Below are positions 9,039-20,145 of a DNA stretch of 27,431 nt, piece after piece; position 1 is the stretch's first letter; the number at the start of each line of letters is the position of its first letter. Location of the stretch: NCBI GenBank assembly GCA_020345785.1, contig CP070771.1, forward strand, positions 67,790 through 95,220. Reading direction: 5' to 3'. The position numbers and the translations under genes are program-made. This DNA is from Desulfobacterales bacterium. GTDB lineage: Bacteria; Desulfobacterota; Desulfobacteria; Desulfobacterales; JAFDCJ01. The notes below the pieces were generated by a model. The model saw nothing but the letters and a program-made list of their open reading frames with translations. It did not search any database and had not been told where the DNA came from.

Positions 9039-9476
9039 TTGTTATTTGATTATGCCAACGTTTTCATTTTCATCATCCTGGGATTTCTGATGACCTTTAT
9101 GATCATCATGCTTTCCCGGCTGCTTGCTCCCCGTAAGCAAGACGTTTCCGACAAATTCACCACCTATGAATGCGGCGAACGCCCGGTAGGGCCAGCCTGG
9201 ATTCTTTTCAATTTCAGGTTTTATGCGGTCGCACTGGCTTTTTTGATCTTCGATATCGAGTTGGCGCTGGTTTTTCCTTGCGTCAGCGTTTTTAGAAAGT
9301 GGCTTCAGGAGGGCCGGGGTCTGCTTGTTTTGAGCGAAATCCTTATATTTGTGGGAATCCTGTTTATGGGCCTGGTCTATATGTGGAACCGCGGTGATCT
9401 TAAATGGAGCAAAGAAGTTCCGGAAAAATCGGCCAGGGAAAACCTGCTGGAAGAAGAAAAACCGGTCGTTTTTTAA
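9039..9476 (+). CDS. nuoA: NADH-quinone oxidoreductase subunit A
   Basis: Small membrane subunit of complex I located beside the quinone cavity at the junction of the membrane and peripheral arms. At 145 residues it has three hydrophobic helices (from about residues 7, 58 and 88). The hallmark loop between helices 1 and 2 (YECGERPVGPAW) carries the conserved cysteine and acidic residues, followed by FNFRFYAVALAFLIFDIE. I use the TTG at 9039 because GGAGG (9027-9031) sits seven bases upstream; the nearby ATG at 9032 is out of frame and stops after five codons. It is the first gene of the nuo operon. The C-terminus carries a charged tail of about 30 residues. Confidence 0.93.
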   Translation: MLFDYANVFIFIILGFLMTFMIIMLSRLLAPRKQDVSDKFTTYECGERPVGPAWILFNFRFYAVALAFLIFDIELALVFPCVSVFRKWLQEGRGLLVLSEILIFVGILFMGLVYMWNRGDLKWSKEVPEKSARENLLEEEKPVVF

Positions 9477-9493: not shown

Positions 9494-9991
9494 ATGCGCC
9501 CTATTTACAATACGATGCCGTCGGAAGGGTTTCTGGGAGCGGTTTTCACCAGGTTGGATCAAGCGCTCAACTGGTGCCGGCTGTCTTCGGTCTGGTATCT
9601 TCTTTTTGGCTTGGCCTGCTGAGCGATTGAACTGATGCAGACCGGCGGTCCGCGAACCGATATCGATCGAATTGGCTCCGTGTTTCGGGCAACCCCGCGT
9701 CAATCGGACCTGATGATCGTGGCCGGGACCCTCACCTACAAAATGGCCTCCCGGCTGCGCCTGCTCTACGATCAGATGGCGGAGCCCAAGTATGTCATTG
9801 CCATGGGAAGCTGTGCCAATTGCGGCGGTCTTTTTCAGCCGACCTATTCCGTGGTCAAAGGGGTGGACAAAATAGTACCTGTCGATGTTTATGTCCCCGG
9901 ATGCCCTCCCAGACCTGAGGCCCTGACGGAGGCTATCTTGAAACTGCAGGAAAAGATCAGACGGGAGCGTTTTTTGGTTAAAAAGAGCTGA
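9494..9991 (+). CDS. nuoB: NADH-quinone oxidoreductase subunit B, candidate selenoprotein (in-frame UGA at codon 43)
   Basis: NuoB carries [4Fe-4S] cluster N2, the last electron carrier before quinone. Family ligands are a tandem Cys-Cys, a Cys in GSC and a Cys in PGCPP. Here the frame reads FGLAC at 38-42, then TGA (9620-9622) as codon 43, then [20 protein letters not shown] (C107) and [11 protein letters not shown] (C137) supply the other two ligands. The TGA thus replaces exactly the second Cys of the pair. With TGA read through, the protein is 165 residues, the normal NuoB length, and no other disruption is seen. A SECIS-like hairpin follows at 9637-9653. I interpret codon 43 as selenocysteine; a TGC-to-TGA nonsense mutation or sequencing error is the alternative. 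A conventional gene caller would split this into a useless 42-residue piece and a 118-residue piece from 9635. The real stop TGA overlaps the nuoC ATG by one base. Confidence 0.85.
9620..9622 (+). other. In-frame TGA, candidate selenocysteine codon
   Basis: TGA directly after TGC (9617-9619) within the nuoB frame, at the position of the second cluster-N2 cysteine. Upstream codons from 9494 and downstream codons to 9988 are in one frame with conserved NuoB sequence on both sides. Confidence 0.7.
9636..9654 (+). promoter_or_regulatory. Candidate bacterial SECIS element in nuoB
   Basis: The upper stem GACC (9640-9643)/GGTC (9647-9650) has the 3-nt loop GGC. Below an A-C mismatch, GC (9637-9638) pairs with GC (9652-9653), and U9636/G9654 adds a wobble. 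The loop begins 21 nt after the TGA and its first base is G. This fits the published bacterial SECIS pattern of a short stem, a G among the first two loop bases, and a UGA-to-loop spacing of about 16-37 nt. The bulged U of the E. coli fdhF element is not present. Confidence 0.5.
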
Positions 9992-10530
9992 TGCATATCC
10001 CGGACATTCTTACAAAAATCAGGCAGCAATTCGGCGAAACCGATATGGATTGGATCGCCGATGGAGGAGCAGATCCCTACCTGGTGATTCCCCGGGCAAG
10101 CCTGCGGCCTTTGGCCGCTTTCTTAAAGGAAGATCCGCAGCTTTTCTTCGATACCCTCATGAGCCTTAGCGGAGTCCACCAGATCGGTGAGCCGGAAACA
10201 CTGGAAGTGGTCTATCACCTCTATTCGATTCGCCACCGGCATCGTTTCATTTTCAAAGTCCGGTTGGAGGGCTCCCTCGGTTTGCCTCATTTCCAACTGC
10301 GGGTGGATACCCTCTCGGATATCTGGCCGGCAGCCGGCTGGATGGAAAGAGAAGTTTATGACATGTTCGGCATTCATTTTACAGAGCATGCAGATTTTCG
10401 CCGGCTGCTGCTTCCTCCCGACTGGGAAGGTCACCCGTTGCTGAAAGATTATCAGGAGCCGGCAACCTATCAGGGCATCAGTACCAGCCGCGAGGAGGTC
10501 GACCCCTGTGCGAAACTTTACGAGGTTTGA
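9991..10530 (+). CDS. nuoC: NADH-quinone oxidoreductase subunit C
   Basis: Peripheral-arm subunit of complex I (30-kDa family), which packs against NuoB and NuoD and carries no cofactor. It has 179 residues; the conserved core is HFQLRVDTLSDIWPAAGWMEREVYDMFGI, followed by HADFRRLLLPPDWEGHPLLKDY, the family signature. It is a separate polypeptide, not fused to NuoD as in enterobacteria. Its ATG overlaps the nuoB stop (TGATG), so its translation is probably coupled to ribosomes finishing nuoB. If so, successful decoding of the nuoB UGA would also affect nuoC output. It ends with TGA at 10528-10530, before an unusual 328-bp gap. Confidence 0.95.
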   Translation: MHIPDILTKIRQQFGETDMDWIADGGADPYLVIPRASLRPLAAFLKEDPQLFFDTLMSLSGVHQIGEPETLEVVYHLYSIRHRHRFIFKVRLEGSLGLPHFQLRVDTLSDIWPAAGWMEREVYDMFGIHFTEHADFRRLLLPPDWEGHPLLKDYQEPATYQGISTSREEVDPCAKLYEV

Positions 10531-10858
10531 ACAGCGAACCGCAGAATGTCGAAGGGTGGTTTCGCCTTGCTCAGTCTTTTTTGCAAAATAGATTGAATAC
10601 CTTCCTTCGACATTCGATAATTCGCGCCTTGGCGTGATTCGATATTCGATATTTATCCGCCTCTGGTGGATTCGCTTTTTTTTAGAGTTTCCTTTCCGAT
10701 CAAACTGGCCGCCCTCCCAAAGTGGGTAAAATTCGGCCGTCAGCGGGGGTACTGACACCTGAAACCTTACGTTTCTGACGACATGTTGTTAGATAAAATG
10801 ACCTAAGCGCCAAAGCCTCAGAAATAACTGCACCTGAACCGAACTGGAAGATCGATAG
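10531..10858. repeat. 328-bp repeat-bearing gap inside the nuo operon
   Basis: No gene is seen. GAATGTCGAAGG (10544-10555) is mirrored by CCTTCGACATTC about 50 bp later, followed by ATTCGATATTCGATATTTATC words. CTGACACCTGAAACC (10752-10766) is the exact reverse complement of the repeat at 941-955 beyond tdh. The last bases (GGAAG at 10846-10850) serve as the nuoD ribosome binding site. The gap splits nuoABC from nuoDHIJKLMN, so a second promoter may be needed; none is obvious. Confidence 0.65.
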
Positions 10859-11974
10859 ATGCCGCTGACCACCGAAGAAATGATTCTCAACATGGGTCCG
10901 CACCATCCCAGTACCCATGGCGTACTGCGCTTTATTCTGCGCACGGATGGCGAGGTGATCTACAGTTGCCTTCCGGATGTGGGGTTCCTGCATCGCGGCC
11001 TTGAAAAAATCGCTGAGAAAGTCAGCTATGCTCAATTCATGCCTTACACGGACCGCATCGATTACCTGGCGGCCATGAACTGCAACCTGGGATATGCCAT
11101 TACGGTGGAGCGGTTGGCCGGGATCGAAGTACCCCTGCGGGCAGAATACATCCGGGTGATGGTGGCGGAGCTGAACCGCATCATCAGCCATCTGATTTCA
11201 GTTGGAACCTTTGCCCTCGACATCGGAGCCGTCACCCCCTTTACCCATGCCTTGCGGGAAAGGGAGCGGGTCAATGACCTGTTCGAAGAGCTCTGCGGGG
11301 CACGACTCACCTACAACTACGTTCGCTTCGGCGGGGTGGCGTTTGATCTGCCCGCAGGATTTCTGGAAGGTGTCAACCGTTTCCTGGACTACTTTCTGCC
11401 GCGCCTGACGCAATTCAACCGTTTGATCTCCAAAAACAAAATTTTCAAAGAACGCCTGTCGGGGGTGGGTGTCATCAGCGCCGCAGATGCGCTCGGTTAC
11501 GCGCTGGCTGGACCCAATTTGCGGGCATCCGGCGTCGACTGGGACCTCCGGCGCGATGAGCCCTATTCCATATATGCTGATTTGGACTTCGAAGTGCCTG
11601 TTGGAAGCGCTGAATTCGGACAGATAGGGGACTGTTACAATCGCTATTGGCTGCGCATCCGGGAAATGGAGCAAAGTGTCCGCATTCTGCGCCAGTGTGT
11701 CGCCGCTATGCCCGACGGTGCCTTTTGGAACCGGTCCAAAAAAAAATTAAAATTGCCGCCCGGCGAAATTTACGTGCGCACCGAGGCACCGCGGGGCGAG
11801 TTGGGCTTCTACCTCATCAGCCGGGGAGACGACCGCCCCTACCGGCTGAAAATACGCACCGGCTCCTTTACGGCCATGAGCATTGTTGAAAAAATATCTC
11901 CGGGACTGATGGTCGCCGACCTGGTGGCCCTGATCGCCAGCCTGGATGTGATCGCGCCGGAAATTGATCGCTAA
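10859..11974 (+). CDS. nuoD: NADH-quinone oxidoreductase subunit D
   Basis: The 49-kDa subunit, a relative of the [NiFe]-hydrogenase large subunit that forms most of the quinone-binding cavity with NuoB. At 371 residues it lacks long extensions. It starts right at the fold with MILNMGPHHPSTHG, whose histidine is the quinone headgroup ligand in characterised complexes. The conserved tyrosine is in YTDRIDYLAAM. Hydrogenase-type nickel cysteines are absent, as expected for NuoD. C-terminal RTEAPRGELGFYLIS and FTAMSIVEKISPGLMVAD are family blocks, and the chain ends with the usual IAPEIDR, close to the family's GEIDR end. The ATG has GGAAG eight bases upstream. Confidence 0.95.
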   Translation: MPLTTEEMILNMGPHHPSTHGVLRFILRTDGEVIYSCLPDVGFLHRGLEKIAEKVSYAQFMPYTDRIDYLAAMNCNLGYAITVERLAGIEVPLRAEYIRVMVAELNRIISHLISVGTFALDIGAVTPFTHALRERERVNDLFEELCGARLTYNYVRFGGVAFDLPAGFLEGVNRFLDYFLPRLTQFNRLISKNKIFKERLSGVGVISAADALGYALAGPNLRASGVDWDLRRDEPYSIYADLDFEVPVGSAEFGQIGDCYNRYWLRIREMEQSVRILRQCVAAMPDGAFWNRSKKKLKLPPGEIYVRTEAPRGELGFYLISRGDDRPYRLKIRTGSFTAMSIVEKISPGLMVADLVALIASLDVIAPEIDR

Positions 11975-11985
11975 AGGTCCTAATA

Positions 11986-13326
11986 GTGGAAAGCTTTATC
12001 AATTATCTTTTTCTTAAGTTCGGGATTTTTCAGCAAGTGGGCTATGTGCCCACCGCAGCAGTCGTGATGCTGGTCTTCTGCCTGTTGGTTCTCAATTTTT
12101 TCGGCTTGGTGTCGGGGTTTCTGACCTTCTTCGAGCGCAAACTCGCCGGATGGACCAACTCGCGGCGCGGCCCCAACAGGGTGGGACCTTACGGGCTGAT
12201 GCAATTCGTGGCCGACGGTGTAAAGCTAATCCTGAAAGAAGACATCATTCCCGCCGCCGCAGATCGAAATTACTTCAAGTTTGCGCCTTACCTGGTCCTG
12301 CTGGGCACCGCGCTTTCCTTTGTGGTTATTCCCTTCGGTCCCCAATGGATTATCAGCGATCTGAATGTTGGGATTTTCTACCTGATTGCCACCGGCTCTT
12401 TCACCGTGGTGGGACTGATCATGGCCGGCTGGGCCTCCAACAACAAATGGTCCCTGCTGGGAGGCATGCGTTCGGCCGCCCAGATCATCAGCTACGAAAT
12501 TCCCAACGCACTGGCCGTTCTGGTGGTGGTGCTCACCGCCGGGACCATGAGCGTCCAGGGCATCATTCAGGCCCAGTCCGGAGGCGTTCATCACTGGCTG
12601 CTTTTCAGCAGTCCCTTCAGCTTCCTGGCTTTCTTTATCTACAGCATCTCCTCTATTGCCGAAATCAACCGCATCCCCTTTGATATCCCTGAGGCCGAAT
12701 CCGAGCTGGTCGCCGGCTATAACATCGAGTACAGCGGGATGCGCTTCGGTGCTTTTTTTGCGGCAGAGTTCGGCAATATCTACGTGGTCAGCGCGGTGGC
12801 GACAACTTGCTTCCTTGGCGGCTGGCAGATTCCGCTGGTTGAAAAAGGGGAGATGCTCGATCCCATCGGCCGGGCCGTGGGAGGGTTCCTGAGCCGCCCG
12901 CCTGTTCTGGTGGTTCTGCTGCTGGGTGCGCTGCCGTTCATGTACCTGGCGTTTAAGGCCCTGCGGGCTTTTATCCGGGACCTGCGCTACAAGCGCGATT
13001 ATTTTGGAAGTCGCTTCGTGCGCCTTAATTCCGAACTTCTCATTCTGGGACTGCTTTTTGGCGCCAACGCCCTGATCATGGTCTTGCACGTACCCCTACG
13101 GGGTCTGCTGCCGGAAATTTATCGTCTGATGTTCCAGTATCTGCTGCCCTTTTTGTCCTTCTTTCTAAAAGCAATGCTGATCTCGTTCGTGGTGCTCTGG
13201 TTGCGCTGGACCCTCCCCCGGCTGCGGGTGGACCAATTGATGGGCGTATGCTGGAGATATCTGATACCCTTGGGATTCTTCTGCCTGATCGGTCAGGGTG
13301 TGTGGATGTGTTTGTTCGAAGCCTAG
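11986..13326 (+). CDS. nuoH: NADH-quinone oxidoreductase subunit H, with an extra membrane segment
   Basis: Membrane subunit at the base of the peripheral arm, linking quinone reduction to proton pumping. Conserved blocks are ERKLAGWTNSRRGPNRVGPYG, the KEDIIP loop, SNNKWSLLGGMRSAAQIISYE, and FDIPEAESELVAGYNIEYSGMRF, with the quinone-site acidic loop intact. It is 446 residues against about 325-350 in most bacteria. The excess lies between GGW (280) and the last conserved helix beginning FFLKAM (393). Normally about 25 residues separate these points; here there are 113, including at least two additional hydrophobic segments (around FLSRPPVLVVLLLGALPFMY and LLILGLLFGANALIMVL) and a basic loop. 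The GTG at 11986 is used, 11 bp after the nuoD stop; no ATG fits. The ribosome binding site is weak (AAAGG). Confidence 0.92.
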   Translation: MESFINYLFLKFGIFQQVGYVPTAAVVMLVFCLLVLNFFGLVSGFLTFFERKLAGWTNSRRGPNRVGPYGLMQFVADGVKLILKEDIIPAAADRNYFKFAPYLVLLGTALSFVVIPFGPQWIISDLNVGIFYLIATGSFTVVGLIMAGWASNNKWSLLGGMRSAAQIISYEIPNALAVLVVVLTAGTMSVQGIIQAQSGGVHHWLLFSSPFSFLAFFIYSISSIAEINRIPFDIPEAESELVAGYNIEYSGMRFGAFFAAEFGNIYVVSAVATTCFLGGWQIPLVEKGEMLDPIGRAVGGFLSRPPVLVVLLLGALPFMYLAFKALRAFIRDLRYKRDYFGSRFVRLNSELLILGLLFGANALIMVLHVPLRGLLPEIYRLMFQYLLPFLSFFLKAMLISFVVLWLRWTLPRLRVDQLMGVCWRYLIPLGFFCLIGQGVWMCLFEA

Positions 13327-13493: not shown

Positions 13494-14126
13494 GTGAAAT
13501 TTCCTCATGACATAAGCAACTATTTTCGCAATATCTACGAAAGTGTCACCACAATTGCTTCGGGCATGTGGATTACATACAAAACCGCAATGTTCGAACG
13601 CAAGGTAACGTTGCAGTATCCTTCGCATGATCCGGTGGAAGGCAGACTCAAAGACCAGGAACTTTTCCCGGCGGGCAGCCCCAAGCCGCCTTTTGAACAC
13701 CTGCTGGGGGCCGGCCAAAGCTACAAAGGACCCCTGCGTCCCCGTCTGTCTGAACGCTACCGGGGGCTTCTGGGCTACGATGAACCCAAGTGCATCTCCT
13801 GTCTGCTGTGCGCCCAAATCTGCCCCATCGATGTGATCACAGTGAAAGGGATTAAAATTGAAGGCCGCAAAACCAAGGCGCCCGTGACCTATACAATCAA
13901 TTATGCCAAGTGTATGTTTTGCGGTCTTTGTGTGGAGATTTGCCCCACGGACGCCGTTTTCTTTACCCGCCGGTTTGAAGGGGCGACTTTTAATTTTCGC
14001 TCCCTGGTCACAGAATTCATCAGCGCCGAGTTGCGGCGTGAACGCCTCGAGCTGGCCGCGGAGGCCAAACAAAAAGCCGCACAGAACAACAAGGGGAAGG
14101 ACATTGGTGAAACAGGTAATTTTTAA
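13494..14126 (+). CDS. nuoI: NADH-quinone oxidoreductase subunit I (2x[4Fe-4S])
   Basis: Ferredoxin-like peripheral-arm subunit carrying clusters N6a and N6b, which hand electrons to N2 in NuoB. Two complete motifs are seen: CISCLLCAQICP and CMFCGLCVEICP, each CxxCxxCxxxCP, so both clusters are expected. The N-terminal amphipathic part (SGMWITYKTAMFERKVTLQYP) anchors it to the membrane arm. At 210 residues it is slightly long because of its C-terminal charged tail. In this operon without NuoEFG, NuoI is the most upstream cluster protein and thus the likely docking point for a ferredoxin or another donor. The GTG at 13494 is the best start, because a nearby ATG (13482) meets a stop after two codons. 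Its end overlaps nuoJ. Confidence 0.94.
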   Translation: MKFPHDISNYFRNIYESVTTIASGMWITYKTAMFERKVTLQYPSHDPVEGRLKDQELFPAGSPKPPFEHLLGAGQSYKGPLRPRLSERYRGLLGYDEPKCISCLLCAQICPIDVITVKGIKIEGRKTKAPVTYTINYAKCMFCGLCVEICPTDAVFFTRRFEGATFNFRSLVTEFISAELRRERLELAAEAKQKAAQNNKGKDIGETGNF

Positions 14127-14610
14127 CGTTTTTATATTGATAACGATTATTCCTTCATTTTGGGTAGCGCTCTCCAGCAATATCGTCCATGCCGCCTTTT
14201 CTCTGCTGTTCACCTTTTTCGGGATTGCCGGTCTTTACGTGCTGCTGGGGGCCGACTTCATCGGCGTCGTCCAGGTAATCATCTACATCGGCGGGATTCT
14301 GGTTCTGATTGTATTCGGTGTCATGATGACCCAACGGGGCCGGGTACTGTCGCTATCGGTCCAACTGCCGGGCAGAATTTTAGGAGCCGTCCTTTCCGCG
14401 ATCATCCTGGCGGCTCTTTTTTTTGCGGCCGCCAATTCCCTGTGGCCGCTGGGACCGTCAGGCAATGAGCTTGGTCCCACCTCGGCCGCCATCGGCGACC
14501 TCTTGCTGGGCAAGTACCTGATCCCGTTTGAGGCGGCCTCGCTCCTGCTGCTGGCAGCGCTTGTCGGAGCGCTTCTGATCGTCCGCAAAAGTGTCAAAGG
14601 AGAGAAGTAA
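14107..14610 (+). CDS. nuoJ: NADH-quinone oxidoreductase subunit J
   Basis: Membrane subunit of complex I next to NuoK and NuoA, with about five helices; its third helix takes part in coupling. At 167 residues its length is normal. Conserved stretch: LYVLLGADFIGVVQVIIYIGGILVLIVFGVMM, including the conserved Tyr in the pi-bulge helix. I chose the GTG at 14107, with AAGGGGAAGG (14091-14100) six bases upstream; this start lies inside nuoI, giving a 20-bp overlap. Much longer open frames starting near 13903 are only the alternative frame of nuoI. The stop TAA shares one base with the nuoK ATG (TAATG), indicating translational coupling. Confidence 0.92.
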   Translation: MKQVIFNVFILITIIPSFWVALSSNIVHAAFSLLFTFFGIAGLYVLLGADFIGVVQVIIYIGGILVLIVFGVMMTQRGRVLSLSVQLPGRILGAVLSAIILAALFFAAANSLWPLGPSGNELGPTSAAIGDLLLGKYLIPFEAASLLLLAALVGALLIVRKSVKGEK

Positions 14611-14933
14611 TGCCGTACAACCTAACCAGTTTCTTGCTGGTCAGTTCACTGCTTTTCTGTCTGGGAGTGTTCACGGTGCTGACGCGTCGCAATGCCATCG
14701 GAATTCTCATGGGCATCGAACTGGTCCTGAATGCCGCCGGCCTTAATTTTGTGGCCTTTTCCCGATTCGGGAACGCATTAAACTTGAGCAATCCATTGAG
14801 CGGTCAGGTTTTTACTCTGTTCGTGATTGCGATTGCCGCGGCCGAAGTCGCCGTGGCCCTGGCGATCGTCCTGTCGCTCTACAGCCGGGTAAAGACCATT
14901 GATGTGGCCGAGTTTAAAGACCTGCAAAGATGA
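14610..14933 (+). CDS. nuoK: NADH-quinone oxidoreductase subunit K
   Basis: A 107-residue three-helix membrane subunit (MrpC-like) contributing buried glutamates to the proton path. The family blocks GILMGIELVLNAAGLNFVAF and FTLFVIAIAAAEVAVALAIV contain the conserved Glu of helix 2 (GIE) and of helix 3 (AAAE). Its ATG overlaps the nuoJ stop by one base, and its TGA is directly followed by the nuoL ATG (TGAAATG), so translation of J, K and L is tightly linked. Nothing is unusual. Confidence 0.95.
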   Translation: MPYNLTSFLLVSSLLFCLGVFTVLTRRNAIGILMGIELVLNAAGLNFVAFSRFGNALNLSNPLSGQVFTLFVIAIAAAEVAVALAIVLSLYSRVKTIDVAEFKDLQR

Positions 14934-14934
14934 A

Positions 14935-17016
14935 ATGGATACTCTCTTGAACGCACAGATCATCCAAAAATCACTCTGGCTGATTCCCTGTCTCCCACTG
15001 GCAGGCGGAGTTATCAATGGGTTGCTGGGGCGGCGGTTTTCCGGCCGTCTCATTCATTGGATCGGCTGCACCAGTGTGTTTTTGGCCTTTGCGATCACAG
15101 CGGCGGGACTTTTCACGCTGGTCGCCATTAAAGAGCCGTCGCAGCGGCTGCTGATCCAGCCGCTGTATCAGTGGCTGCTCACCGTCTGGCCCCAGGGACA
15201 ATTCAGCCTGGAGGCAGCCCTGCGGCTGGATCCGCTCTCGGTGGTCCTGTGCCTGGTGGTGACCGGCGTCGGATTTCTCATCCACCTTTATTCCGTGGGC
15301 TACATGGCGGGCGACCCGAGCCAGGCCCGTTACTTTGCCTACCTGAACCTGTTTACCTTTGCCATGCTGCTGCTCGTGCTGGCCGACAACCTGCTGCTGA
15401 TGTTTGTGGGATGGGAAGGAGTGGGGCTGTGCTCCTATCTGCTCATCGGCTTCTGGTTCAGCGACCTGGAAAAGGCCCGGGCCGGAATGAAGGCGTTTAT
15501 CGTCAACCGCGTGGGAGATTTTGGTTTCTTTGTGGGCTTGATGCTTCTGTTTTGGTCGCTTTATGCGGCCGGGGGCGGGGGGATCAGCGGCCTTGATTTT
15601 AATCAGCTGAAGGCGGCCGTACCGTTGCTGACCTCGGCGGATCCCATCGGCGGGGTCGACATCACGACCTGGGTGGCGCTGCTGCTGTTTGTAGGCGCCA
15701 CCGGCAAATCGGCCCAAATCCCCCTTTATGTCTGGCTGCCCGACGCCATGGCCGGCCCGACCCCTGTCAGTGCCTTTATCCACGCGGCCACTATGGTGAC
15801 GGCCGGCGCGTATATGATCGTTCGGCTCAATTTTCTCTATCTGGCCGCCCCGGCTGCTCTGGCGGTCGTGGCCACGGTGGGATGTCTCACTGCGGTCTAT
15901 GCCGCCGTGATCGCCATGACGCAGAACGATATCAAGCGGGTTCTGGCTTACTCCACCATCAGTCAGTTAGGCTACATGTTTCTGGCGATCGGTCTGGCGG
16001 CTTTCGACACCGGCATTTTTCATCTGGTCACCCACGCTTTTTTCAAGGCCCTGCTCTTTCTGGGGGCCGGCAGCATCATTCACGCCGTCCACCACAACGA
16101 CCTGCAGGCCATGGGCGGGCTTCGCAAATATATGCCCCTGACGTTCGGCACGTTCCTGGTCGCCTACCTGGCCATTGCCGGGGTCCCGCCGTTTGCGGGT
16201 TTTTTCAGCAAAGACGAGATCCTCTGGGAAGCTTTCAATCGTCAGCTCGCGGTGCCGGGACTGAATATGGCGTTGTATATCCTGGGCCTGCTGGGAGCGG
16301 GCATCACGGCGTTTTATATGACCCGTCTCATGGTACTTGCCTTTGCCGGCACCTTCCGGGGCGATGCACAACAGGCCCAACATCTGCATGAATCCCCGGC
16401 GGTCATGACGCTGCCCCTTGTTGTTTTGGCGCTGCTTTCGGCGGTCGGCGGCGTCATCGGCCTGCCCGCGTTGACCCACCTGCCCAAATTGCTGCACCGC
16501 TTCTTAAGCCCCGTCCTGGGTGCGGCTGAAGCTTCGCACCCTGCGACCGGCGCCAATGCATTGGAGCTGCTCCTGATTCTAATTTCGATTGCCGTGGCCT
16601 TCGGCGGCATTTTTCTGGGTTGGCTTTTTTATGTAATACGGCCGGGCCTTCCCGGTCTGGTAACCGCCCGCTTCAACGGAATATACCGGTTGATTGCGCA
16701 AAAGTTCTATGTGGATGAGATCTACCACGCGCTCTTTGTGCGCCCAGTTTTAAAACTTGTGGCGCTGAGCGGCCGTTTTGACCTAAGCGGCATCGATGCG
16801 GCCGTCAACCTTTCTTCACGGCTCACCGCCAAACTGGCCTTTGTGGTGGGCTGGGAGGATCTGCAGATTCTGGATGGCGCGGTGAACGGATTGTCAGCGG
16901 TGGTCCAAAAGTGGGGCGCCGGACTGCAGCGCCTGCAGACGGGAAAAGTCCAGCACTACCTGTATTCGGTGGTGCTGGGGCTGTTCGTGCTTTACGTGAT
17001 CATGCAGCTGACTTAG
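14935..17016 (+). CDS. nuoL: NADH-quinone oxidoreductase subunit L
   Basis: Distal antiporter-like proton-pumping subunit (MrpA-related) with the long lateral helix at its C-terminus. It has 693 residues. The key Glu is in MFVGWEGVGLCSYLLIGFW, the pumping Lys in GKSAQIPLYVWLPDAMAGPTP, and the His-rich helix in AFIHAATMVTAG; the second half contains AMTQNDIKRVLAYSTISQLGYM with a conserved Lys. The C-terminal 150 residues or so include the motif FNGIYRLIAQKFYVDEIY typical of NuoL, distinguishing it from NuoM and from MrpA. I start at the ATG 14935, one base after the nuoK stop, rather than at the more upstream in-frame codon inside nuoK. An 88-bp gap follows before nuoM. Confidence 0.95.
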   Translation: MDTLLNAQIIQKSLWLIPCLPLAGGVINGLLGRRFSGRLIHWIGCTSVFLAFAITAAGLFTLVAIKEPSQRLLIQPLYQWLLTVWPQGQFSLEAALRLDPLSVVLCLVVTGVGFLIHLYSVGYMAGDPSQARYFAYLNLFTFAMLLLVLADNLLLMFVGWEGVGLCSYLLIGFWFSDLEKARAGMKAFIVNRVGDFGFFVGLMLLFWSLYAAGGGGISGLDFNQLKAAVPLLTSADPIGGVDITTWVALLLFVGATGKSAQIPLYVWLPDAMAGPTPVSAFIHAATMVTAGAYMIVRLNFLYLAAPAALAVVATVGCLTAVYAAVIAMTQNDIKRVLAYSTISQLGYMFLAIGLAAFDTGIFHLVTHAFFKALLFLGAGSIIHAVHHNDLQAMGGLRKYMPLTFGTFLVAYLAIAGVPPFAGFFSKDEILWEAFNRQLAVPGLNMALYILGLLGAGITAFYMTRLMVLAFAGTFRGDAQQAQHLHESPAVMTLPLVVLALLSAVGGVIGLPALTHLPKLLHRFLSPVLGAAEASHPATGANALELLLILISIAVAFGGIFLGWLFYVIRPGLPGLVTARFNGIYRLIAQKFYVDEIYHALFVRPVLKLVALSGRFDLSGIDAAVNLSSRLTAKLAFVVGWEDLQILDGAVNGLSAVVQKWGAGLQRLQTGKVQHYLYSVVLGLFVLYVIMQLT

Positions 17017-17104
17017 CGATGCGGGCATCAGAGTACGGCTGCAAACCGCTTGAAGAGAAAATCGACCTAATTCTCGAGCCCTTAAAACAGAGGAGGTTTT
17101 GTCG

Positions 17105-18607
17105 ATGTTACCGGAGCACCTATTGAGTTGGATGATATTCTTTCCGGTGATTGGCGCCTGTCTGATATTGGTGGTGCCGAAGAAATACCCCGCCTTGATG
17201 AAATTTACGGCACTGGCTGCAACCATCCCGCCTCTCGGCTGGGCGGTGCAGCTTTTTGTTCAGTTTGACCGCTGGGACACGGGATTTCAGTATGTGGAAA
17301 AGGTTCCCTGGATCAGGGCTTTCAACATTCACTACTTCATCGGAATCGACGGCATCAGCATCCCCATGGTCCTGCTGACGGCATTGCTCGCCTTTATCTG
17401 CGTCATTGCCTCCTGGAACATCAATCAATACGTGCGGGGCTACTTTGCCCTGTTTCTTTTGCTGGATACCAGCATGATGGGAGTCTTCTGTTCGCTGGAC
17501 TTTTTCCTGTTCTATGTCTTCTGGGAATTGATGCTGTTGCCCATGTATTTTTTGATCGGGGTCTGGGGCGGTCCGCGCAAGGAATATGCCGCCATCAAGT
17601 TTTTCCTGTTCACCCTGGTGGGCAGCGTTCTGATGCTGGTGGTCATGCTGGTGTTCTATTTCGGTTCAGCGGAGCCGGTTACCGGCCTGCACTCCTTTGA
17701 TCTTACCGTTTTAGCCGATCAGGGGGCGCACCTGTCTCTGCTGCAAACCAATATCGTCCGCTGGCTGAGTTATCTGGCACTGCTGATCGGCTTTGCCATC
17801 AAGATTCCCGTGGTGCCCTTTCACACCTGGCTGCCGGACGCCCACGTCGAAGCACCCACTGCCATCAGCGTCATCCTGGCCGGTGTGCTGTTGAAGATGG
17901 GAACTTACGGAATCCTGCGAATCTCTTATCCACTGCTGCCGGATATGGTGCTGCGGTTTGCGCCGTACGTGGCCTTTTTCGGTCTGCTCAGCATCATCTA
18001 TGGTGCCCTGTGCGCCATGGCACAAAAAGATTTAAAAAAGCTGATTGCCTATTCCAGCATCAGCCACATGGGATTTGTGGTGCTGGGCATGTCGGTATTT
18101 ACCAATACCACCGCCATCAACGGAGCCGTGCTGCAGATGTTCAACCACGGGACGGTCACGGCCATGCTGTTTCTGCTGGTGGGAGTCATATATGATCGTG
18201 CTCACCACCGGGACATTGACGGCTTCGGCGGGCTTGCCAAGATCATGCCGGTTTACGCGGGCTACACGGGGCTGGCATTTTTTGCCGCTCTGGGACTGCC
18301 GGGACTCTCCAGCTTTATCAGTGAAGCCCTGGTTCTGCTGGGCTCCTTTCAGCAGTACCGGGCGTTTACCATTGTTGCCACCACCGGCATCATACTGACC
18401 GCCGGCTACTTTCTGTGGACCATGCAGCGGGTGTTCCTGGGTCCGACCAACGAGCAGTACGCTAAGCTGCCCGAAATCAGTCTCCGCGAAGTATTTACCC
18501 TGACCCCGCTGGCAGTGATTGTAATTGTGCTGGGATTCTATCCCATGCCGGTGTTGAACCTGATTGCAACCACGCTGCAGCAAACCGTGGCCTTGGTGGC
18601 CCGTTAA
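17105..18607 (+). CDS. nuoM: NADH-quinone oxidoreductase subunit M
   Basis: Central antiporter-like proton-pumping subunit of the membrane arm (MrpD-related), 500 residues and about 14 helices. Characteristic elements: YFIGIDGISIPMVLL near the N-terminus, the conserved Glu in FWELMLLPMYFLIGVWGG, the pumping Lys in AIKIPVVPFHTWLPDAHVEAP, and the second Lys in MAQKDLKKLIAYSSISHMGFV. A strong AGGAGG (17091-17096) lies eight bases before the ATG at 17105; a TTG two codons earlier is too close to it. This is the best ribosome binding site in the operon, fitting a gene that is not translationally coupled to the one before. Confidence 0.95.
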   Translation: MLPEHLLSWMIFFPVIGACLILVVPKKYPALMKFTALAATIPPLGWAVQLFVQFDRWDTGFQYVEKVPWIRAFNIHYFIGIDGISIPMVLLTALLAFICVIASWNINQYVRGYFALFLLLDTSMMGVFCSLDFFLFYVFWELMLLPMYFLIGVWGGPRKEYAAIKFFLFTLVGSVLMLVVMLVFYFGSAEPVTGLHSFDLTVLADQGAHLSLLQTNIVRWLSYLALLIGFAIKIPVVPFHTWLPDAHVEAPTAISVILAGVLLKMGTYGILRISYPLLPDMVLRFAPYVAFFGLLSIIYGALCAMAQKDLKKLIAYSSISHMGFVVLGMSVFTNTTAINGAVLQMFNHGTVTAMLFLLVGVIYDRAHHRDIDGFGGLAKIMPVYAGYTGLAFFAALGLPGLSSFISEALVLLGSFQQYRAFTIVATTGIILTAGYFLWTMQRVFLGPTNEQYAKLPEISLREVFTLTPLAVIVIVLGFYPMPVLNLIATTLQQTVALVAR

Positions 18608-18648: not shown

Positions 18649-20145
18649 GTGATTCCTGACACCTTTATACACAGCAATCTTCAGAAACTTGCCTTTATCG
18701 GACCGGAGATGATTCTCACCTTGGCGATTTTAATTTTGCTGGGTGTGGGCATGATTTTCTCCCTCCAGCGCCAGCGGCTGCTGTGCACGCTTCTGGCGGT
18801 GGCCGCGTTGGCCGGATCGCTGCTGACCCTGCTGCGGTTGCCGGCGCCCGCAGCGAATCTCGGCTATCTCTCCGAGCTTTTTGTTTGGGATTGGTTGTCC
18901 TGCTTTTTTAAGATATTTTTCGGCGTGGCGGCGGCTTTCACCATTCTGCTGACCCAGGCAAGCCGGAGCGAAATCGGCGACACCGAGTACAATGAAAGCA
19001 TTCTTCTGATTCTGGCCGTTACTACCGGCATGATGCTCCTGGTGGCTGCCAACGACCTGTTGATGATCTACCTGGCATTTGAAACCATGGGGATATTAAG
19101 CTATTTGCTGGTTGGGATCAGGGGCGACGACGCACGCAGCGGCGAAGCCGCGCTGAAATATGTTCTTTATGGTGCCTTTACTTCGGGCACCATGCTGTTT
19201 GGTTTCTCCCTGCTCTTCGGGCTGGCGGGAAGCACCGATCTGCCCGCCGTAAGCCGGCAGGTGGCGGCCGCGGCCTTGCTTCCTCAGGACCATCTGCTGC
19301 TGGTTTTAGCGATGCTGTTTCTCCTGGCTGGGTTGCTCTATAAAACCGCTTCATTCCCGTTCCACTTCTGGTGCCCGGACGTTTATGAGGGAGCGCCCAC
19401 GCCCGTCACTGCCTTTCTCAGTGTGAGTCCGAAGGCGGCGGGATTTGGTCTCTTTATCCGGCTGTTTTATCCCCTCTTTGCTACCGGTCCGGTATCCGAC
19501 ACCTATGCCGCCGTTGCAGGGTTGAACTGGCCGCAGATCCTGGCCTGGGTTTCCGCCATTACGATGACCCTGGGAAACTTGAGCGCGATCCACCAGAAAA
19601 ATATTAAAAGACTCCTGGCGTATTCCAGCATCGCGCATGCCGGCTATCTGTTTATGGGAATATGCAGCTTGAGTAATTTGGGCCTGAGGGCGGTGGTTTT
19701 TTATCTGGTGATTTATCTTTTCATGAACCTGGGCGCCTTTACCGTTGTGGCCGCTGTGGCCGAAGCAGGGGGAACCGAAGAAATTCAGTCCTACCGCGGT
19801 CTGGGCAGCAAAACCCCGTTCACCTGCCTGGTCATGACTGTTTTTTTGTTTTCCCTGATCGGAATTCCTCCGTTTGCGGGCTTTGTGGGCAAAATCTACC
19901 TTTTTGCGGCCGTCATTTCCCAAAAGCTTTACTGGCTGGCGATCGTGGCCGCTCTCAATACTGTGGTATCCCTCTATTATTACCTGCGAATTGTAAAAGC
20001 CATGTTTTTGGAAACGGCCGCCGATGCCTTCCAGCCCCAGGTTGCCCCGGGTTCGCAAATCCTGCTGACCGTGCTGCTGATACCCACCCTGGGGCTCGGC
20101 ATCTACTGGCAACCCCTGGCCAATCTGGCCGGGCTGGTTTTCTAA
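18649..20145 (+). CDS. nuoN: NADH-quinone oxidoreductase subunit N
   Basis: Third antiporter-like proton-pumping subunit, 498 residues and about 14 helices, packing against NuoK. Conserved Glu in YLAFETMGILSYLLVGI, Lys in LYKTASFPFHFWCPDVYEGAPTP, and the second Lys in HQKNIKRLLAYSSIAHAGYLF. The PTPVTAFLSVSPKAAG block is specific to NuoN. The GTG at 18649 is used; the closest ATG (18635) opens a five-codon frame that stops at the GTG itself (CGTGA), which could couple translation. It is the last gene of the nuo operon, and its final four bases overlap the end of the converging flavin reductase gene. Confidence 0.94.
   Translation: MIPDTFIHSNLQKLAFIGPEMILTLAILILLGVGMIFSLQRQRLLCTLLAVAALAGSLLTLLRLPAPAANLGYLSELFVWDWLSCFFKIFFGVAAAFTILLTQASRSEIGDTEYNESILLILAVTTGMMLLVAANDLLMIYLAFETMGILSYLLVGIRGDDARSGEAALKYVLYGAFTSGTMLFGFSLLFGLAGSTDLPAVSRQVAAAALLPQDHLLLVLAMLFLLAGLLYKTASFPFHFWCPDVYEGAPTPVTAFLSVSPKAAGFGLFIRLFYPLFATGPVSDTYAAVAGLNWPQILAWVSAITMTLGNLSAIHQKNIKRLLAYSSIAHAGYLFMGICSLSNLGLRAVVFYLVIYLFMNLGAFTVVAAVAEAGGTEEIQSYRGLGSKTPFTCLVMTVFLFSLIGIPPFAGFVGKIYLFAAVISQKLYWLAIVAALNTVVSLYYYLRIVKAMFLETAADAFQPQVAPGSQILLTVLLIPTLGLGIYWQPLANLAGLVF

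Follow-up and report, generated by a model that had tools for sequence, protein, structure and literature searches.

The nuo operon and the in-frame TGA of nuoB

The window, by which the whole analysed stretch of 27,431 nucleotides from a Desulfobacterales bacterium (contig CP070771.1) is meant, carries on its forward strand a nuo operon of eleven genes in the order A-B-C-D-H-I-J-K-L-M-N. The nuoB gene (9494..9991) lies behind nuoA (9039..9476), and its TGA terminator overlaps the ATG of nuoC (9991..10530). There follow nuoD (10859..11974), nuoH (11986..13326), nuoI (13494..14126), nuoJ (14107..14610, with a GTG start of our choice), nuoK (14610..14933), nuoL (14899..17016, start uncertain), nuoM (17099..18607) and nuoN (18649..20145), and no nuoEFG was seen beside these genes. 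A preliminary description of this DNA had called all the other nuo genes intact; this holds for the nine subunits that pass their Pfam cut-offs (NuoA, C, D, H, J, K, L, M and N), and NuoI matches the NCBIfam NuoI models below their cut-offs. Two further properties of the operon were observed. The otherwise tight arrangement has a gap of 328 bases between nuoC and nuoD (10531-10858) that holds no convincing gene, and NuoH (446 residues), of which residues 33-435 match a profile of 298 positions, apparently contains about 100 extra residues.

Translation of nuoB gives 165 codons before the TGA terminator and one internal stop, TGA at 9620-9622, directly 3′ of TGC at 9617-9619; residue 43 is therefore annotated here as putative selenocysteine (Sec). 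With the TGA read through, the product scores 272.3 bits against PRK14818 (cut-off 255) and 226.7 bits against TIGR01957 (cut-off 142.7) and is also matched by Pfam PF01058, which confirms the previously described full-length NuoB frame with a single in-frame stop. Solved NDUFS7/PSST chains match residues 17-161, and residues 15-159 align with residues 58-202 of Yarrowia NUKM (6gcs_K), a segment of equal length. The four ligands of cluster N2 in NUKM are C85, C86, C150 and C180, of which C85 and C86 form an unusual, strained tandem pair (PMC8042128). In the alignment they correspond to residues 42, 43, 107 and 137 of the window NuoB: three cysteines are kept, Cys42 as the first of the tandem pair, Cys107 (9812..9814) as the third and Cys137 (9902..9904) as the fourth ligand position, and the TGA takes the place of C86, the second Cys of the pair. 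The earlier placement of the stop at the tandem Cys ligating N2 is thereby borne out. TGA is also an ordinary stop here, since 7 of the 26 genes counted in the window, nuoB among them, end with it.

Recurrence of TGA at the tandem-Cys codons of NuoB

The contigs of 84,980 species were scanned for the exact pattern with TGA at the second Cys, a motif to which TGA at the first Cys is invisible. Three loci were found, in a Nitrospirae MAG (L001), a Ca. Tectomicrobia MAG (L002) and Desulfobacterales bin60 (L003, CP070694.1). The last of these, sister genome G003, is the window's organism, separately assembled: the TGA is kept, and among 160 codons compared on both sides of it there is one difference from the window nuoB, which is synonymous. 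In CP070694.1 short N runs stand between unrelated pieces, for example inside nuoH, and look like contig joins or masking; the absence of a gene there is therefore weak evidence.

The first-Cys form surfaced through protein search; the names Nitrospirota order and Desulfobacterota used here follow the record titles of the three loci and the names borne by similar proteins. The L001 protein was searched against the 176 genomes of its Nitrospirota order and gave matches in 171; all 40 TGA matches listed were read, together with 98 listed without TGA, leaving about a dozen stop-free matches unread. Among the 138 NuoB genes read, 98 have Cys-Cys, 39 have TGA at the first Cys and one (L001) has it at the second, which amounts to at least 40 TGA-bearing NuoB genes in 38 genomes among the matches listed. 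In Desulfobacterota, the phylum of G003 (395 genomes, 342 with matches), there are at least 20 further TGA genes, 20 of 20 with TGA at the first Cys. Tectomicrobia contributes one gene, L002, with TGA at the second Cys; its class and phylum consist of that single genome in the set searched. Closer to the window, a sample of 291 genomes from the order of G003 (195 with a match) has TGA only in G003 among the matches listed, where two distant matches carry TAA (G044 and G286), and in the family of six genomes TGA is again confined to G003. For Cys matches in this order and phylum, DNA was read where a locus was given.

In all 62 genes (40 from the Nitrospirota order, 20 from Desulfobacterota, L002 and the window), checked from 30 codons 5′ of the pair to the terminator, the sole stop is one of the two tandem-Cys codons. 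The argument made from the window alone, that the stop is not randomly placed, is thus upheld; TGA at this very codon is shared by L001, L002 and L003, and the commoner form has it at the first Cys.

Hairpin and codon conservation downstream of the UGA

In bacteria, the SECIS element has a loop of 3-9 nt with G in the first two positions, situated 16-37 nt from the UGA (PMC13188914, section 5). The scan used here accepted hairpins of at least 4 bp with a loop of 3-7 nt and a spacing of 16-30, the rule of -7.5 kcal/mol not being applied hairpin by hairpin; the strict test compared them with synonymous shuffles in 225 genes after removal of 20 duplicate loci, with identical stretches counted once. 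A perfect hairpin of SECIS geometry is present in 50 of 52 distinct first-Cys stretches, with 31 at p≤0.05 and a median p of 0.025; of the Cys stretches, 59 of 155 have a hairpin and 8 reach p 0.05 (median p 1.0). The two first-Cys exceptions, in which the strict test finds no hairpin, are L253 and L265; p 0.05 is missed by 21 of the 52. The second-Cys stretches give p values of 0.007 (L002), 0.063 (the L001 gene) and 0.203 (window).

Codon usage in the Nitrospirota order points to the same region. There, 27 putative Sec genes share the peptide TTGSSHYDL after the pair, and codons +7, +8, +10, +11 and +12 (ACG ACG. TCG TCA CAC) are identical in 27 of 27, whereas the pairwise agreement of the same codons is 0.26-0.52 in 32 Cys genes with the peptide T[T/A]GSSHYDL. 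The remaining codons mostly agree at 0.2 to 0.6 in the Sec and Cys sets alike, some being higher (-4, +1, +16, +22 and +28). The conserved stretch, TGACGA-CGGG(A/T/C)-TCGTCA, folds into a stem of six base pairs whose loop lies 22 nt after the UGA, and the loop codon is variable at its third base. In other Sec groups the place of the hairpin is kept and its sequence is not (GGCTGCT-GGA-AGCAGCC, GCTACT-AGTTTG-AGTAGC, GGCTGC-AGGT-GCAGCC), and sub-groups differ in loop length and offset. The SECIS geometry of PMC13188914 (section 5) fits the hairpins of Nitrospirota and of the other Sec groups.

The candidate bSECIS hairpin of the window (9636..9654, forward strand) also fits the published geometry. 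Its core GACC-GGC-GGTC at 9640-9650 has 4 perfect base pairs and a GGC loop 21 nt after the UGA, with G first in the loop, and the lower stem has one mismatch. Taken alone, it does not stand out from synonymous shuffles (p 0.20), the fold of the stretch is not unusual (z -0.42; MFE of the hairpin-holding 48-nt stretch -10.5), the whole window gave no match in Rfam, and the Cys relative L025 can form a hairpin of this type too. With p 0.203, the window hairpin is therefore compatible with a SECIS element, not diagnostic of one.

Selection after the TGA and exchange of putative Sec and Cys forms

Between the window and L025, the part of nuoB after the TGA has dN 0.038 and dS 1.58, and this purifying selection supports the predicted decoding as Sec. 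When 5.8 billion proteins were searched with the post-TGA part of the window NuoB, 29 of the best 120 clusters listed started exactly at the first Met after the TGA (P0001-P0014, P0016, P0019-P0028, P0032-P0034 and P0070; several on contigs of 14-57 kb). Gene callers choose such an internal Met when the frame is interrupted by a stop further 5′, and they seem to shorten Sec-NuoB genes as a rule, the upstream stop of the 29 clusters being deduced from their start Met. In 23 clusters of equal length, 7 of the core columns 1-113 vary, as against 11 of the 15 tail columns 119-133, which lie behind the window's terminator (columns 114-118 were left out). The near-invariance of the core next to a drifting tail shows selection on the core, although a NuoB chain lacking its first two ligands would scarcely function. 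On a weak tree of the 120 clusters and the window (112 columns, 2 starred branches) the labels change 4 times, with 1 change forced, so the shortened clusters are not cleanly one clade.

The labels Sec and Cys change 19 times on a DNA tree of the 138 Nitrospirota-order genes from which the Sec codons and the hairpin were left out, 8 changes being forced by starred branches; shuffled labels change 35 times. The only second-Cys gene of the order falls among first-Cys and Cys genes on this tree. Putative Sec forms and Cys forms are thus interchanged repeatedly. On a protein tree (FastTree, 143 rows: 62 Sec and 81 Cys, the Cys rows subsampled), the window gene groups with Cys relatives, apart from the first-Cys groups, and Cys is found at this site in L025 and L215 (both 89%), the genome relatives closest to it among the matches listed. 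Two kinds of Cys gene were seen beside Sec genes: the Cys-Cys NuoB of L057/L123 (G428) still has a complete hairpin, and in L055/L056 one base of the hairpin stem is changed. L057 and L055/L056 look as expected of recent changes from Sec to Cys, which they possibly are.

Selenocysteine machinery and other NuoB copies

All three genomes with exact-scan loci have SelB over its cut-off, versus 2 of 14 controls, and SelA is over its cut-off in the genome of L001 and in G003; SelA was not found in G002, the genome of L002. A clear tRNA-Sec is present in one of the three, the genome of L001. G002 has three matches at or above the gathering score for tRNA-Sec, of which the two fetched are tRNA-Trp and tRNA-Ser according to ARAGORN; in the sister genome G003, where one search scored 150 of 591 candidates, no tRNA-Sec was found. 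The earlier expectation of Sec genes in the same genome is thus realized for SelA and SelB of the sister genome and not for its tRNA-Sec. In the Nitrospirota order SelB is over its cut-off in 159 of 176 genomes, because of which its presence hardly discriminates there; by E-value it is found in 36 of the 38 TGA genomes, the TGA genomes G326 and G460 having none at cut-off level. Five genomes (G398, G385, G386, G391 and G399) have two full-length SelB matches over the cut-off each.

The window itself encodes on its reverse strand (1439-2605) a cysteine desulfurase family protein of TIGR01977 (435 bits, cut-off 377), which also resembles selenocysteine lyase SclA below the cut-off. Cysteine desulfurases of this type adjoin selD in some genomes, and a role of this product in selenium delivery is possible.

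A second intact nuoB had been named as an argument against Sec. Such a gene is present: G003 also has a Cys NuoB, as a NuoBCD fusion, and G002 likewise holds a Cys NuoB. This does not refute Sec: in the Nitrospirota order, 10 of the 38 genomes with TGA have that NuoB as their sole one among the matches listed. With a single NuoB-like match in these ten, the TGA-bearing gene is unlikely to be dispensable there if the assemblies are near complete. In G329 both NuoB matches carry TGA, among the matches listed.

The link drawn earlier between Sec and a complex I lacking the NADH module is not general, because the operons of L090 and L116 run past nuoD into ORFs that resemble nuoE, nuoF and nuoG, as judged by size, order and sequence start. 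An unusual gene order was seen in L002 (4550-8000), where the TGA-bearing nuoB stands between a nuoI-like ORF and ORFs resembling nuoE, nuoF and the start of nuoG.

Proposed function of the UGA and alternative explanations

It is proposed that UGA codon 43 is decoded as Sec by the bacterial SelA/SelB route, helped by the hairpin just downstream, and that the resulting full-length NuoB would hold the [4Fe-4S] cluster N2 with three cysteines and one selenolate. That the window nuoB is a selenoprotein gene of this kind is considered very probable. Selenocysteine at the N2-ligand codon, as first suggested from the window, is supported by tandem-Cys TGA in three phyla, the conserved hairpin in the large sets, SelA/SelB and purifying selection. 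There is a high probability that NuoB constitutes an undescribed selenoprotein family and, equally, that the window gene is a member with Sec at the second position; for the window alone the case is thinner, because its hairpin has p 0.20, its nearest relatives have Cys, and the sister genome contains a Cys NuoBCD and no tRNA-Sec that was found. The gene would belong to a wider Sec-NuoB set that spans Nitrospirota, Desulfobacterota and Tectomicrobia, in which either position of the tandem pair can be Sec, and Sec and Cys have repeatedly replaced each other. A selenium-dependent complex I is likely to be widespread in anaerobic Nitrospirota and Desulfobacterota, with a selenolate ligating N2 at either position and lineages flipping between Sec and Cys and between positions. 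From sequence, we infer Sec insertion in NuoB and selenolate ligation of N2; selenium could then shift the N2 potential. More broadly, it could tune the cluster's potential or pH-dependence, the lability of its ligands or its oxygen tolerance for work with low-potential quinones in anaerobes.

Even if NuoB is a selenoprotein elsewhere, the TGA in the window lineage could be a nonsense mutation that struck a second complex I which is redundant. The Cys NuoBCD of the sister genome, the Cys of the closest genome relatives among the matches listed and the non-significant window hairpin would agree with such a loss. However, the site is one of the two codons that are predicted Sec elsewhere, the sister assembly keeps the TGA and has SelA and SelB, dN is far below dS towards L025 downstream, the 29 shortened clusters include 23 whose core is nearly invariant while the tail drifts, and nine other nuo subunits pass their Pfam cut-offs; we regard a nonsense mutation as distinctly unlikely. 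For the NuoB family as a whole, a simple pseudogene was rejected. It is also unlikely that the UGA encodes Sec and the selenium is not an N2 ligand in the resting enzyme, or that Cys is inserted when selenium is scarce: the ligation is read from an alignment, and the strained tandem-Cys pair comes loose in a mutant (PMC8042128), but in solved complexes the residue that Sec would replace does ligate the cluster, and the other three ligands are kept.

Two other origins of the TGA receive next to no credence. A genome-wide reassignment of UGA to Trp, Gly or Cys would account for the in-frame TGA itself and found no further support; it was rejected as contradicted by ordinary TGA terminators, 7 among the 26 window genes counted with nuoB among them, and in the NuoB genes read TGA interrupts the frame at a tandem-Cys codon and nowhere else, with SelB present. 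Sequencing or assembly error might be suspected since the window and its relatives are mostly metagenome assemblies, but two separate assemblies of one organism agree with 61 further genes in three phyla, and TGA-bearing L090 and L257 sit on contigs of more than 2.3 Mb. The recurrence at one of two codons and the conserved hairpin led to the rejection of error.

Relation to known systems and significance

Decoding as Sec would set the window NuoB apart within a well-known family. With NuoB/PSST/NDUFS7 (PF01058, TIGR01957) it shares the full length, the place in the operon, three of the four N2 cysteines and whole-chain homology, and it differs in the UGA at one N2-ligand codon, where two solved chains and the Cys relatives read have Cys-Cys. 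Like bacterial selenoproteins, it has an in-frame UGA at a Cys position, Cys homologues, a candidate hairpin 16-37 nt downstream and at least part of the Sec machinery in the genomes; unlike them, NuoB is absent from Table 1 as excerpted from PMC13188914 (2026; 119 families by its count). The NCBIfam scan of the window NuoB gave no selenoprotein model. The PF02508 'subunit E' is presumably of the Nqr/Rnf type and not part of complex I. This PF02508 is the 'NADH:ubiquinone oxidoreductase subunit E' of Table 1 in PMC13188914. NuoB is not named as a selenoprotein in the excerpts of PMC13188914, PMC8042128, PMC4893023, PMC10779653, PMC5109826 and PMC5736913. The earlier remark that no NuoB selenoprotein has been described therefore agrees with the open-licence PMC literature, to the extent of these excerpts and of that catalogue.

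The HdrA selenoprotein (CxxU) is similar in carrying Sec in an iron-sulfur electron-transfer protein and different in being unrelated to NuoB. The preliminary description cites HdrA of some methanogens as a precedent for Sec as a cluster ligand. A Sec gene for HdrA also occurs in the sulfate reducer Desulfococcus multivorans, which has five Sec genes, its Nuo, a NuoBCD fusion, not being among them (PMC5109826, as excerpted). The [NiFeSe] hydrogenases are comparable in that selenium replaces sulfur at a metal-ligating Cys and redox behaviour is changed (PMC10779653). Hydrogenases are related to complex I, but the Sec of the [NiFeSe] enzymes ligates Ni in the large subunit and not a cluster in the small subunit, the one that resembles NuoB.

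N2, which passes electrons to quinone, is a cluster with a pH-dependent potential, and its strained tandem-Cys ligation and possible changes of its ligands have been discussed for coupling (PMC8042128, PMC4893023). A selenium-for-sulfur swap at N2 ligands would offer a direct test, through paired Sec and Cys enzymes of near relatives and a 77Se spectroscopic handle. If Sec-NuoB is real, it would provide a natural graded ligand-swap experiment where electron transfer meets proton pumping and would extend the selenoproteome to a core respiratory complex. In this bacterium and many other anaerobic ones, a central respiratory enzyme appears to have a selenium-dependent variant that has been overlooked. 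It would also explain why many public NuoB entries begin at an internal Met, with neither the N-terminus nor the first two ligands. Other NuoB entries that begin at the Met behind the tandem-Cys pair are P0123, P0135, P0144, P0172, P0181, P0196, P0204 and P0208.
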